IMG/VR virus record: IMGVR_UViG_3300046507_000353
Location: 1 to 34,320 of that record
Reading direction: 5' to 3' (one strand)
DNA from: a virus
Length of the DNA: 34,320 bases
A program made the position numbers and the translations under genes. Below the pieces are notes generated by a model. The model did not search any database and was not told the origin of the DNA. It saw only the letters and a list, made by a program, of their open reading frames with translations. This document shows, piece by piece, positions 15,103 to 25,823 of this stretch. Every line of letters begins with the position of its first letter. Positions within the stretch are counted from its first letter, which is position 1.

Positions 15103-15759
15103 TCAGGCGCTCTCTGATGTTGGAACGGCCCATTCGGGGCCGTCGTCTGTTGTGCGCTGACAAACGCGCTTGAAGCCTTCCATCTTCAGCACGCTTCCGA
15201 CCGAGAAGGCCTTGCCGTTGAACTGACATACGGTCGGATCCTGAGCAAACCCGAGGCCAGCCAGCCACGCGCCGCAAAGCAGCGCGCCGGCTAGACCGAT
15301 GGCGCAGGCAAGTTGTCGATTCGAAATGATGATGGTGTTGCGGCGTAAAGATCCGCCAGCAGATGGCGACGGCTCGTTTGATGAGCCTGGGTCACCCGTG
15401 AGCGCAAAGGGATGCGCAAAAGACGAAGACTGAGGCACTTTGAGAGGATCCTTGACCCAGCGATCCAGTAGAGCCATCACCTCGTGAAAGCTGTCACGTG
15501 GCAGCTCACCAAGTTTATCGACGCCGAAGTCAGTGAGAATCACTTTGTAAACGTCGAATCGTTCGAGGCCGGTGGCACTCAGAACTTCCCCTACTCGGTA
15601 GGCGATCGCCTTACGTTGCAGGTCGGTGATAGCCCTATCTGTATTTGAACCGAATGACAGATTGAAAACATTGCTCAACTGCGGGTTGTTGCTGCCCTCA
15701 TTGACCGTACCGCCGGTAATGAGCTGGGCAACATCCCCAACTTTGTAACTTTCCCCCAT
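15103..15759 (-). CDS. Single-pass membrane protein with repressor-shared N-terminal motif
   Basis: A 218-aa protein, starting at ATG 15759 with GGTGG upstream (ATG 15777 is an alternative). Residues 8-20, GDVAQLITGGTVN, nearly duplicate repressor residues 121-133. Residues ~38-95 resemble an ORF6C-like helical region (weak). A Ser/Pro-rich linker (110-140) precedes one membrane segment (~154-173, LACAIGLAGALLCGAWLAGL) and a short C-terminal domain with two Cys. Likely topology is N-terminus in the cytoplasm and C-terminus in the periplasm. It lies between the repressor and secreted-protein genes. Function unknown. Confidence 0.75.
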   Translation of the reverse strand: MGESYKVGDVAQLITGGTVNEGSNNPQLSNVFNLSFGSNTDRAITDLQRKAIAYRVGEVLSATGLERFDVYKVILTDFGVDKLGELPRDSFHEVMALLDRWVKDPLKVPQSSSFAHPFALTGDPGSSNEPSPSAGGSLRRNTIIISNRQLACAIGLAGALLCGAWLAGLGFAQDPTVCQFNGKAFSVGSVLKMEGFKRVCQRTTDDGPEWAVPTSESA

Positions 15760-15789
15760 GATCCACCGCACCCACATCCATAATGGCTT

Positions 15790-15823: not shown

Positions 15824-16267
15824 CTAGCCTTTCGTCCTCTTGCCAGTGCTGATACGCGCACCGGTTTGATTCACTGCCCCGCCGCTGATGATCTGGGCAA
15901 CGTCGCCCATGCTGAACTTCTGCGTGGGTTGTGCTTCTGGAGCGTTGTAACCGGCGATCATCCCAAGAACGCCCGAGCGGCCTTTCGAGTCGAGTTCTCG
16001 GTATCCACCCAGAACCAGCATCTCGTCCGGGGCCAAATGCCCACCGGACAGCTCGCCAGTGACGATATAAAGCACATCGGCACCCTGGCGCCCTACCGCT
16101 TCGAGAAAGCCGAGCTTCGGCTCAGTCTTGCCCGCCTCGTAATCACAGTAAGTACGAAAAGCAACGCCGCCACGCTTGGCCATCTCCGTTTGGGTGAGGC
16201 CAAGACGAACGCGTTCCTGCGACAACCGATCGTTGTATTGCAGTTTTTCGCAAAGATCGTTTGACAT
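15824..16267 (-). CDS. Phage repressor (HTH, no peptidase domain)
   Basis: A 147-aa XRE-type repressor. The helix-turn-helix is residues ~14-48 (RLSQERVRLGLTQTEMAKRG then GVAFRTYCDYEAGKTEP). The C-terminal 30 residues carry GDVAQIISGGAVN. It lacks a LexA/S24 self-cleavage domain, so RecA-driven cleavage is unlikely. It is divergent from the early genes, and three TATTGCAG operators cover the intergenic region and its own first codons. Start ATG at 16267 with CAGGAA upstream. It is the functional equivalent of P2 C or 186 CI. Confidence 0.87.
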   Translation of the reverse strand: MSNDLCEKLQYNDRLSQERVRLGLTQTEMAKRGGVAFRTYCDYEAGKTEPKLGFLEAVGRQGADVLYIVTGELSGGHLAPDEMLVLGGYRELDSKGRSGVLGMIAGYNAPEAQPTQKFSMGDVAQIISGGAVNQTGARISTGKRTKG

Positions 16268-22159: not shown

Positions 22160-22404
22160 ATAACACACTGGCCAGTCTGCCTGTGCCGCTTCAGATTCGC
22201 GCCTGTGAGGCGCGTTACTGGTTGCGCAAGGGCTACACAACGCAAGAAAAGGTCGATGAACTGCGCGAGTTCTTGCACAAAAAGCGCGGCACCAACGCGA
22301 TCGAGCTGCTGATTGAGGAAATGCGCAACCAATGGCGCATTCGCAGCCTGTGGATAAATAAGCCGATCGGCGAAGCCGAGCCAGCACAGGGACAAAACAA
22401 ATGA
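22156..22404 (+). CDS. Hypothetical 82-aa protein
   Basis: A charged helical protein (RYWLRKGYTTQEKVDELREF then FLHKKRGTNAIELLIEEMRN) found between the zinc-ribbon gene and the DUF4224-like gene. It is coupled on both sides by 4-base overlaps (ATGA). No function can be assigned from the sequence. Confidence 0.75.
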   Translation: MNNTLASLPVPLQIRACEARYWLRKGYTTQEKVDELREFLHKKRGTNAIELLIEEMRNQWRIRSLWINKPIGEAEPAQGQNK

Positions 22405-22610
22405 GCAACGTCTCAGGGATTCTCAGCTTCGACGATCTGAAACAAGTCACCGGCTATCAACGCCGGTCTGACATCGAGCGTACGCTCAGAGAACAAGGTA
22501 TTCGTGTGTTCATGGGCCGGAACGGCCCGTGGACGACCACGGATCTGATCAATCAGGCCGGTGGCTATACTCCACCGACTCAGGACAGTTACAGCCCGGA
22601 AATCATCTAA
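22401..22610 (+). CDS. DUF4224-like small protein, possible recombination directionality factor
   Basis: A 69-aa protein whose residues ~7-45 (ILSFDDLKQVTGYQRRSDIE then RTLREQGIRVFMGRNGPW) match the DUF4224 pattern, a small winged-helix-like module commonly placed just before phage integrases. The stop and the integrase start overlap (TAATG). An excisionase-like role is suggested by position and size, not proven. Confidence 0.75.
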   Translation: MSNVSGILSFDDLKQVTGYQRRSDIERTLREQGIRVFMGRNGPWTTTDLINQAGGYTPPTQDSYSPEII

Positions 22611-23758
22611 TGAGACGCGGAAGAAAGCGCAAGCACAACCCGAACATTCCGGCGCACATCGATCAGGCTGCCTTACCGGCAGCCGTTTACTTCGACCAGC
22701 GTGGGGCCGGTGTCTGGTACACGTTGTTTTTCGACGAAGGCGGCAACCAGCGTCGGACGAATTTGGCCGGACCAACTACGACCCTGTCTGAACTCCACCG
22801 GCTGATGGAAGATCGCTCCGGCGTTGACCGTGACTGCCTGCGTTATCTGTGTGAGCAGTTCCACAAAAGCGATCGCTTCAAGAGCCTGAAACCCAAGACC
22901 CAGGCTGACTATGAATACTCACGCGACGTCCTGCTGACCTTTCCGACCAAGCTGAAGAAGCCGCTCGGTGAACTGGCCGTCCGCAAGTTCAATGCGCCGC
23001 TGGTTCAGCGCGTGATCGATCGTATTGCCGAAGCGGGAACGCCGTCGAAGGCGGCGCACGCACTGCGCTACCTGCGCCGGACGATGCAATGGGGCAAAAA
23101 CCGTGGCTTCGTCGAGACGAATCCTGCGCAGGGCATCGAGGCGCCGAAGGAACGTAAGCAGCGGCGTCTCCCTGAACCCGCTGCCATGAAAGCGCTTGTG
23201 AAGTACGCCCAACAGCAGGGCCAGCTCACACGCGGCCAACTTGGCGCGTGCGCGCCGTACTTGTGGTACGTGATGGAGATCAGCTACCTCTGCCGTTTGC
23301 GCGGCATCGAGACGGTGACGCTCACCGACGCGAACGAAACCCCGGACGGCGTGCTGACCAACCGACGCAAAGGCAGCCGTGACAACATCGTGCGATGGAC
23401 GCCACGTTTGCGCGCGGCCTGGGACAGCGCGAAGAAAGTGCGCTCCGACATCTGGAGCAAAAAGCGCGTGCCGGTGCCGATCGCTGCAGATCAACGCCCG
23501 ATCATCACCGCCGCTCACGGCGGCGCGTTGCAGAAGTCCAGCCTCGATACCGCTTGGCAACGGTTCATCACCCAAGCAATCAAGGCTGAGATCATCACCG
23601 CCGAGCAGCGCTTCGGCATGCACGACTTCAAGCGCCGAGGAATCACCGATACCGTCGGCACCCGAGCCGATAAGCAGGAGGCGTCCGGTCACCGTGACGA
23701 AGCGATGATGGACATTTACGACCACAGCGTGCCGATCGTGAATCCATCAGCGGAATAG
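22610..23758 (+). CDS. int: Tyrosine-family integrase
   Basis: A 382-aa site-specific recombinase. The N-terminal ~75 residues are the arm-binding part, residues ~77-165 the SAM-like core-binding part, and 185-375 the catalytic domain. Likely catalytic residues are R231 (RLRGIE), K254, H338, K341 (HDFK, an HxxK variant of HxxR), H361 (SGHRD) and nucleophile Y370 (DIYDHS). It should integrate the phage at the tRNA-Thr site through the attP at 24543-24588. ATG 22610 overlaps the previous stop; the upstream extension is inside the DUF4224-like gene. Confidence 0.95.
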   Translation: MRRGRKRKHNPNIPAHIDQAALPAAVYFDQRGAGVWYTLFFDEGGNQRRTNLAGPTTTLSELHRLMEDRSGVDRDCLRYLCEQFHKSDRFKSLKPKTQADYEYSRDVLLTFPTKLKKPLGELAVRKFNAPLVQRVIDRIAEAGTPSKAAHALRYLRRTMQWGKNRGFVETNPAQGIEAPKERKQRRLPEPAAMKALVKYAQQQGQLTRGQLGACAPYLWYVMEISYLCRLRGIETVTLTDANETPDGVLTNRRKGSRDNIVRWTPRLRAAWDSAKKVRSDIWSKKRVPVPIAADQRPIITAAHGGALQKSSLDTAWQRFITQAIKAEIITAEQRFGMHDFKRRGITDTVGTRADKQEASGHRDEAMMDIYDHSVPIVNPSAE

Positions 23759-23802
23759 AACACTTCGTCGGGCGGCTACCTCACCGCCCACGGCTCACCA
23801 TA

Positions 23803-23822
23803 TACTGTTTATACGTACAGTA
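23803..23822. promoter_or_regulatory. LexA box (SOS operator)
   Basis: TACTGTTTATACGTACAGTA has the CTG-N10-CAG core and a symmetrical TACTGT/ACAGTA frame, one of the best possible matches to the gamma-proteobacterial LexA consensus. It starts 46 bases before the ATG of the 80-aa gene and overlaps a TATACT hexamer at 23801-23806 that could be a -10 box. Confidence 0.88.
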
Positions 23823-23848
23823 TTCGCAACACAAACAGGATATAGGTG

Positions 23849-24088
23849 ATGACCGTAACCAACCCCCATCAGGACTGGACGACTGCCATGTGGTGGACGC
23901 TTCACCGCGATCAGGCCGCACTGCTCAATCGCCCAGGCACTCACCATAAGTCGCTGATTGAAGGCGCCAATGCGTTACATAGGGCTCATCTCATTGATGG
24001 AGATGACCTCTGCGAGCTACTTGAATTAGCCGATGCAGCTCTGGCCTATGCCGTTGAAACGCTGCTTGACGTGCGCAACGTGGAATAG
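23849..24088 (+). CDS. SOS-controlled small protein, candidate antirepressor
   Basis: An 80-aa, Leu/Ala/His-rich, mostly helical protein (HKSLIEGANALHRAHLIDGD, then LCELLELADAALAYAVETLL). No family is recognised. It is the first gene after the LexA box. Because the repressor lacks a cleavage domain, an SOS-induced protein is needed for DNA-damage induction, as with Tum in 186 or the Gifsy antirepressors. That function is inferred. GTG 23846 is an alternative start, adjacent to the ATG. Confidence 0.75.
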   Translation: MTVTNPHQDWTTAMWWTLHRDQAALLNRPGTHHKSLIEGANALHRAHLIDGDDLCELLELADAALAYAVETLLDVRNVE

Positions 24089-24097
24089 GGGTGTCGA

Positions 24098-24445
24098 ATG
24101 CAGATGCTGGTTACTCCTATGCGCTGCGAGGGGGTTGCTCTGACTCCGCAGGAACGAGGCCGTTATAACGCGATCAGGGGAGACGTTCGGGTTGGTCCCG
24201 AACAGCGTGCTGAGCTTGGTCGAAGTTCGAACGTTGCAAGGTTGTTTGATGGCTTGACCCGAAGGACGGAAGGTCTGCCCCAGCTACTGGATGTGACGTT
24301 GGTGGGAATGGGTGAGAGTGGCTTTGTGCTGAGTGGAATCGAGTTTATCGACGGGCGAGCTTATGCGCAGTCGTGGTGGTGCCGACTTCAGCAACCAAAA
24401 AAAACCATGCCGTTCGAGCCTCCAGCGGCCAAAAACCCTACGTAA
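24098..24445 (+). CDS. Hypothetical 115-aa protein, SOS operon
   Basis: A protein starting 9 bases after the SOS gene, probably in the same transcript. The pattern ALTPQERGRYNAIRGDVRVG and MGESGFVLSGIEFIDGRAYA, with a Trp-rich WWCRLQ end, suggests a soluble alpha/beta fold. No family is recognised. Its 3' end reaches the first arm site of attP. Confidence 0.7.
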   Translation: MQMLVTPMRCEGVALTPQERGRYNAIRGDVRVGPEQRAELGRSSNVARLFDGLTRRTEGLPQLLDVTLVGMGESGFVLSGIEFIDGRAYAQSWWCRLQQPKKTMPFEPPAAKNPT

Positions 24446-24659
24446 ATCAAACGCATGGCCCCGCGCCGAACAAGGCTTGCAGCGGGCCTCCTGCGTAAAA
24501 TAAAACACTGCAACCCTTTGATTTATATGATTAGTTTCCCTTACTTGTAATCAGTAGGTCTCGGGTTCGATTCCTGATGCCGGCACCATATAAAACAAGG
24601 CCTCGCAGCGATGCGGGGCCTTGTTGTTTCCGCAATACGTAAAATTCGACGTAAAATTC
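24439..24659 (+). other. attP: attP: tRNA-Thr core with flanking arm-type sites
   Basis: The core 24543-24588 is the 3' portion of a tRNA: anticodon loop CTTGTAA (anticodon TGT, Thr), then ATCAGTAGGTC, a T-arm GGGTTCGATTCC and acceptor TGCCGGC followed by ACCA. Around it are ACGTAAAAT-type sites: TACGTAAAT at 24439, GCGTAAAAT at 24493, ACGTAAAATTC at 24637 and 24649. This is the layout of integrase arm sites on both sides of the crossover. It lies beyond the integrase and SOS genes. Confidence 0.88.
24594..24625 (+). terminator. Terminator hairpin right after the attP core
   Basis: Arms AACAAGGCC/GGCCTTGTT, extended by CGCA/TGCG and a 4-base loop, are followed by GTTTC. In the integrated state it would sit downstream of the restored host tRNA-Thr and may serve as its terminator. 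Confidence 0.75.
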
Positions 24660-24787: not shown

Positions 24788-25462
24788 ATGATTCTGTTGA
24801 TCGGCTGTGAGAAAGGCGGCGCGGGCAAAAGCAACATAGGGGGAAACCTCGCGGTATGGGCGGCACTAAAAGGCGTGGACACAGTGGTTATGGATGCTGA
24901 CCCGCAAGCCACTGCCGCCAAGTTCATTGCACGGAGGAACGACGCCGGGCTACCGGTCGTGCATTGCGTTCAAAAGACTGGAGACGTTTTCGCTACGGCC
25001 AAGGATCTCGCCCAGCGTTATCAGCTCGTAATCATTGATGCGGGTGGTCGCGACAGCAAAGAACTGCGCACGGCGATGGTCGCGGCGGATCGGATGATCA
25101 TCCCTACTCAGGCCAGCCAAGCAGACCTTGAAACGCTTCCGCACCTCGACGAACTGATCGGGTTGGCACAGGGCATCAATCCCAACCTCGAAGCCTTTGC
25201 TGTTTTGTCACGCGCACCAACCAATCCAGTGATCAATGAAGTCGCCGACGCCAAAACCCTACTCGTAGAGTTCGAGAGCTTCACCCTGGCCCGATCGATC
25301 ATTCGCGACCGCAAGATCTACCGGGACGCATGGTTGCAAGGTAAAGGCGTTGTGGAGATGGGCAACAGCAAGGCACGAGCAGAAATCCAGTTGCTCGCCG
25401 ACGAGATGTTCCCCCACCTACTGCGCCACGAGAGCGCGAAACCCACAGCACTCGCACAGTGA
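24788..25462 (+). CDS. parA: ParA-family partition ATPase
   Basis: A 224-aa deviant Walker-A ATPase. KGGAGKS is residues 9-15, VVMDADPQATAA is the switch I region (around residue 40), and LVIIDAGGRDSKELRTAM is switch II. There is no N-terminal DNA-binding extension, so it is of the short type Ib class (ParF-like). Such proteins segregate low-copy plasmids or excised mobile elements. GGAGAG precedes ATG 24788. The small downstream gene is its likely partner. The 24611 extension runs through attP and is rejected. Confidence 0.9.
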   Translation: MILLIGCEKGGAGKSNIGGNLAVWAALKGVDTVVMDADPQATAAKFIARRNDAGLPVVHCVQKTGDVFATAKDLAQRYQLVIIDAGGRDSKELRTAMVAADRMIIPTQASQADLETLPHLDELIGLAQGINPNLEAFAVLSRAPTNPVINEVADAKTLLVEFESFTLARSIIRDRKIYRDAWLQGKGVVEMGNSKARAEIQLLADEMFPHLLRHESAKPTALAQ

Positions 25463-25520: not shown

Positions 25521-25823
25521 ATGGCATTCGACGTTAAACCCAAGAGGCCACCGGTAGACCCTGATGCGCTGGCTGCATTTGCGGAAGGTGCCGACACTCA
25601 CACAACGGCGCCGGTAGCTCCTGCTGCCGCCGCTCCGATCGGCAAAGTCGAGCAAGAAGGCAAGCTCACCGAAAGCATGTTGTTTCGCTGCTCGAAAGCG
25701 ACCTACGACGAGTTCGCGTTTGTGTACGAGAACACCAACGTGAAGAGCAAACAGAAGTTGCTGGAGTCGATCCTGCTGCCGGAGATCCAGCGGCGCGCCG
25801 CTGAAATCCGATCGAAGCAGTGA
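25521..25823 (+). CDS. Small ParA partner, possible ribbon-helix-helix centromere-binding protein
   Basis: A 100-aa protein. The first ~45 residues are flexible (Pro/Ala-rich, TTAPVAPAAAAPIGK), and the last ~50 (KLTESMLFRCSKATYDEFAF then VYENTNVKSKQKLLESILLP) have a strand-helix-helix outline like ParG or other RHH centromere-binding proteins. A flexible N-terminus plus C-terminal RHH is the usual type Ib design. It follows parA and is preceded by TGATATC repeats. It could instead be a regulator only. Confidence 0.72.
   Translation: MAFDVKPKRPPVDPDALAAFAEGADTHTTAPVAPAAAAPIGKVEQEGKLTESMLFRCSKATYDEFAFVYENTNVKSKQKLLESILLPEIQRRAAEIRSKQ

Follow-up and report, generated by a model that had tools for sequence, protein, structure and literature searches.

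We propose, with moderate confidence, that positions 23755..24430 (+ strand) of a 34320-base IMG/VR virus record of P2-family layout (the window, analysed at its full length) form a discrete LexA-controlled SOS cargo cassette of Pseudomonas prophages, which moves horizontally, is optional for the phage and has a damage-tolerance or SOS-modulating role. The cassette contains a LexA operator and two small genes, ORF80 and ORF115. It was delimited as a presence/absence unit, being absent from relatives L009 and L010 and having CAGCGG at both edges.

LexA operator and the two genes behind it

Besides portal and tail genes, the window encodes an HTH repressor, an Arc-like repressor, a CII-like activator and a DNA primase. 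Profile matches identify an excisionase-like protein (xis, phrog_1266; 22401..22610, + strand) and a tyrosine integrase (int; 22610..23758, + strand). The att core of 52 bp, 96% identical to the 3' part of tRNA-Thr, is located at 24540..24591 (+ strand). The order is int, cassette, att core, so the initial annotation was right to place the region beside int and att. Its idea that excision could be co-induced from the LexA box must be abandoned, since the box is downstream of both xis and int (22401-23758) and does not drive them. The window also contains a ParA-like partition gene (phrog_164; 24788-25462), followed by a small 100-aa gene (25521-25823). Repeated ATATCA/GATATC motifs occur upstream, in a phage that also has an integrase and att; these features may reflect a plasmid-like stage.

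The operator, TACTGTTTATACGTACAGTA (23803..23822, no strand assigned), was identified by a mismatch scan of the window and by its conservation upstream of relatives. The int stop codon is 44 bp upstream of it, and ATG 23849 lies 26 bp downstream. It is the sole site in the window with three or fewer mismatches to the ideal operator, and 100 shuffles gave an expectation of 0. The core, CTGTTTATACGTACAG (23805-23820), is not striking by itself, since CTGT-N8-ACAG is found once in the window with 0.5 occurrences expected by chance, and the case rests on conservation. Of 73 distinct regions upstream of viral ORF115 relatives, 66 contain a perfect CTGT-N8-ACAG within 350 bp of the gene. The same holds for 60 of 77 genomic loci, which come from Pseudomonas, Stutzerimonas, Caballeronia and Burkholderia relatives, the background being 15/2475 windows (0.6%). 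Nearly all viral sites are 285-313 bp before ORF115, that is, in front of ORF80. In loci with flipped gene order, the box precedes ORF115 by 27-38 bp, and ORF80 comes second. A scan for sigma-70 promoters found none. The near-ideal LexA operator that had been noticed from the letters of the window is thus real, being the only such site there and conserved upstream of relatives, and from its conservation we strongly infer direct LexA control of the cassette genes in vivo. The box had been assigned to one 80-aa protein; LexA control is supported, but the operator precedes two genes, and the first product has 79 residues.

Both genes were defined by the ORF list, profile matches, dN/dS and structural models. 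ORF80 (23849..24088, + strand) encodes a protein of phrog_6137 (E 1.4e-17), and ORF115 (24098..24445, + strand), which starts 9 bp past the end of ORF80, encodes a 115-aa protein of phrog_5560 (E 1.2e-29); PHROGs annotates both families as of unknown function. In the ORF list the frame of ORF80 begins at GTG 23846. Because this codon is GCG in relative L004, the start was set at ATG 23849. Compared with L004, dN/dS is 0.21 for ORF80 and 0.13 for ORF115, which indicates that both genes are under purifying selection. Relatives of ORF115 have about 98 residues and terminate at YAQSWWCR; additional C-terminal residues are found only in the window and L004. The terminal NPT and stop codon of ORF115 are encoded by backbone sequence, which is also found in cassette-free L009.

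ORF80 is predicted to be helical (model pLDDT 76) and ORF115 to be all-beta (model pLDDT 88). Fold searches returned nothing significant for either protein: ORF80 retrieved only common helical arrangements, and ORF115 retrieved PH/RanBD-like barrels with Z of 6.1 at most. Sequence searches of PDB were empty or insignificant, Pfam and NCBIfam gave no convincing match to either protein, and no description of the pair was found in open-access literature.

Distribution, mobility and SOS-gene neighbourhoods

Direct search with ORF80 gave no match in annotated phages, one weak plasmid match and one close viral contig. Search with ORF115 opened the family, with 142 relatives in viral contigs. Eighty of these viral loci were kept, a few being cut off at a contig end, and an ORF80 relative is located directly upstream of the ORF115 relative in all 80. 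ORF80 precedes ORF115 in 34 of the 77 genomic loci and follows it in 22; in the other 21 it was not detected. Matches to phrog_5560, some of them partial, were found in 71 of 298 Pseudomonas species genomes, so that about a quarter of the sampled species carry at least part of an ORF115-family gene. ORF80-like sequence was also seen in two other proteins. Pseudomonas bharatica encodes a 243-aa protein (L208:1474-2202; phrog_19595) whose N-terminus is ORF80-like and whose Cys-rich C-terminus resembles a zinc ribbon, and a small ORF80-like protein (L222:1483-1725), recognised by a weak profile match only, directly follows an exodeoxyribonuclease III-like gene.

Absence of the cassette is seen most directly in phage G091, which is 85-92% identical to the window across an aligned 11-kb region. 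Its int stop codon runs directly into the sequence found after ORF115 in the window, the box and both genes being gone, and no phrog_5560 match or CTGT-N8-ACAG was detected in its 33.5 kb. Fragment G092 displays the same absence. Between the window and L004, dS is 0.64-0.65 for the cassette versus 0.22 for the adjacent int, which suggests that the cassette was exchanged by recombination.

In HP1-like prophages, the cassette neighbours tail genes close to one end of the record. The same end carries umuDC in 4 of 17 cassette-free relatives (three with a LexA-like box; the umuDC call was checked by Pfam and NCBIfam in L346), and neither in 13 of 17. This prophage end is a cargo hotspot: a Septu PtuA gene is located behind the cassette in L067 (L067:2454-3620, E 8e-154), and a Ppl-like protein is encoded in the cassette-free relative L350 (L350:1-2661). 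Such defence genes at the site would fit a pair that itself inhibits the host or serves in defence once SOS is triggered, perhaps as a division inhibitor or a defence-island switch. We regard this as improbable, since neither ORF80 nor ORF115 matches PADLOC, the gene after the cassette varies among loci and is frequently on the opposite strand, and the SOS-related partners of ORF115 described below would be left unexplained.

These partners were counted by sequence motifs, with Pfam confirmation in two examples of each. In 16 of the 77 genomic loci an SRAP gene is found no more than 1 kb from ORF115, often in divergent orientation with a shared LexA box between them; UmuD is this close in 3 of 77. 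Pfam confirms that L190 and L160 encode SRAP and that L166 and L178 encode an S24 UmuD-like protein. In Caballeronia arationis, a LexA box is followed by an ImuA gene (221 bits, cutoff 150) directly before ORF115, and in phages PG1 and vB_PstS-pAN a SRAP gene precedes ORF115. Loci of the window type mostly consist of ORF80 and ORF115 alone, with no SRAP or UmuD within 1 kb. The context of ORF115, with SRAP, UmuD and ImuA and usually behind a LexA box, points to DNA-damage tolerance, although such a neighbourhood shows association and is no proof of activity.

Relation of the cassette to the phage repressor

The 147-aa HTH repressor (15824..16267, - strand) contains no S24 domain by domain search, as the initial annotation had stated in describing it as lacking a self-cleavage domain, and no S24 domain was found anywhere in the window. 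The repressor gene and the adjoining membrane-protein gene (15103-15777) share the motif GDVAQ[IL]I[ST]GG[AT]VN.

With such a repressor, ORF80 or ORF115 might act as an antirepressor that is produced on SOS induction, binds the 147-aa protein and renders an otherwise non-inducible phage inducible, as Tum does in 186. The conserved LexA control agrees with this, as does the fact that no S24 protein was found in 40 of 44 searched cassette records. Antirepressor operons already known are likewise small and LexA-controlled, and they combine two functions whose order varies; proteins of the GftA type are similarly small (PMC3121763). The dinI-plus-antirepressor operons of Gifsy and PSP3 (PMC3121763) thus offer a parallel to a LexA operon of two genes in either order, which counts against the cargo reading.

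Comparison among relatives argues against this explanation. G091 encodes a repressor 99% identical to that of the window, yet it has neither the cassette nor a LexA core. Conversely, the cassette occurs together with full-length S24 repressors of 234-246 aa in G003 (237 aa), G005 (234 aa) and G030, and it is little changed there, ORF115 of G003 and G005 being 82-83% identical to ORF115 from S24-free phages. When repressor-type S24 proteins were counted in 33 near-complete relatives of one lineage, they were present in 2 of 15 with the cassette versus 3 of 18 without it (Fisher p = 1). On the same control we reject the idea that the cassette replaces S24 repressors, which the 40 of 44 cassette phages without S24 might have suggested. 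The repressors of the window and L004 are 98% identical, their ORF80 proteins 80%. Neither protein resembles Tum of 186, GftA of Gifsy or DinI in sequence, profiles of both giving no match; the GftA sequence compared was the ORF beside dinI in Gifsy-2, identified by its position. Finally, SRAP, UmuD and ImuA would not be expected as neighbours of an antirepressor.

The earlier proposal that ORF80 acts as an SOS antirepressor is therefore not borne out, and we consider antirepression by either protein unlikely. It keeps some probability, since the two-gene LexA layout is also that of known antirepressor operons (PMC3121763). The cassette could still add inducibility to a G091-like phage, G091 being a metagenomic record. 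In general, a LexA box near a non-cleavable repressor does not alone identify an antirepressor.

Proposed role and comparison with known systems

For the SOS cargo cassette proposed here, the following scheme can be drawn. In the lysogen, host LexA would repress ORF80 and ORF115, and DNA damage would derepress them; the conservation of the operator argues strongly for this step. The two proteins would then jointly support damage tolerance in an accessory role or modulate the SOS response, as their genomic context suggests. ORF115, the conserved beta-barrel-like partner, would most likely act with SRAP, UmuD or ImuA proteins or at damaged DNA, with ORF80 as its helical partner. The cassette would thereby aid survival of damage by the lysogen or by the induced phage; it would not be the trigger of the phage's induction.

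More specifically, and with somewhat less confidence than in the cassette as such, ORF80 and ORF115 may represent an undescribed SOS damage-tolerance module. In mobile elements of Pseudomonas and Burkholderia relatives, this module would be added to UmuD, SRAP and ImuA or take their place, and it would have a novel function at damaged DNA or on translesion polymerases. Alternatively, the pair might dampen or shape the host SOS response in the manner of DinI, RecX or PsiB, through RecA filaments or LexA, and for instance limit induction of competing prophages. Both proteins are small, LexA-controlled and prophage-borne, and antirepressors are found together with DinI in phage operons of comparable kind (PMC3121763; Gifsy-2). 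Since similarity to DinI is lacking and no direct link to RecA was found, we rate dampening slightly below antirepression and well below a damage-tolerance module.

In most of the loci examined, a LexA box precedes the ORF115-family gene. If the family shapes mutagenesis or damage survival, prophages would give their hosts an extra SOS function.

Several known systems resemble the cassette in part. The Gifsy dinI-gftA/gfoA antirepressor operons (PMC3121763) share with it a LexA box, two small genes and a short repressor without a self-cleaving domain, but they have no sequence relation to it, and the cassette is also found with S24 repressors. The p95 operon of 186 (tum, orf97) is likewise a LexA-controlled two-gene operon, and 186 is a P2-family phage. 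It too is unrelated in sequence, Tum carries a DinI part, and cassette-free phages here retain the same repressor.

LexA-controlled umuDC operons of phages and plasmids (rulAB-type) are, like the cassette, LexA-controlled cargo, and they occupy the same end of related prophages. Profile searches found neither a translesion polymerase nor an S24 processing domain in ORF80 or ORF115, so the cassette is not itself a umuDC operon; in place of these it carries two families without functional annotation. The remaining comparison is with the SOS mutagenesis neighbourhoods of SRAP, UmuD and ImuA (PMC3765255). Aravind et al. 2013 (PMC3765255) introduces SRAP and ImuB-C, and in the parts of that article considered here ORF80 and ORF115 are not recognisable. 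Relatives of ORF115 adjoin SRAP, UmuD or ImuA genes, usually with a LexA box.
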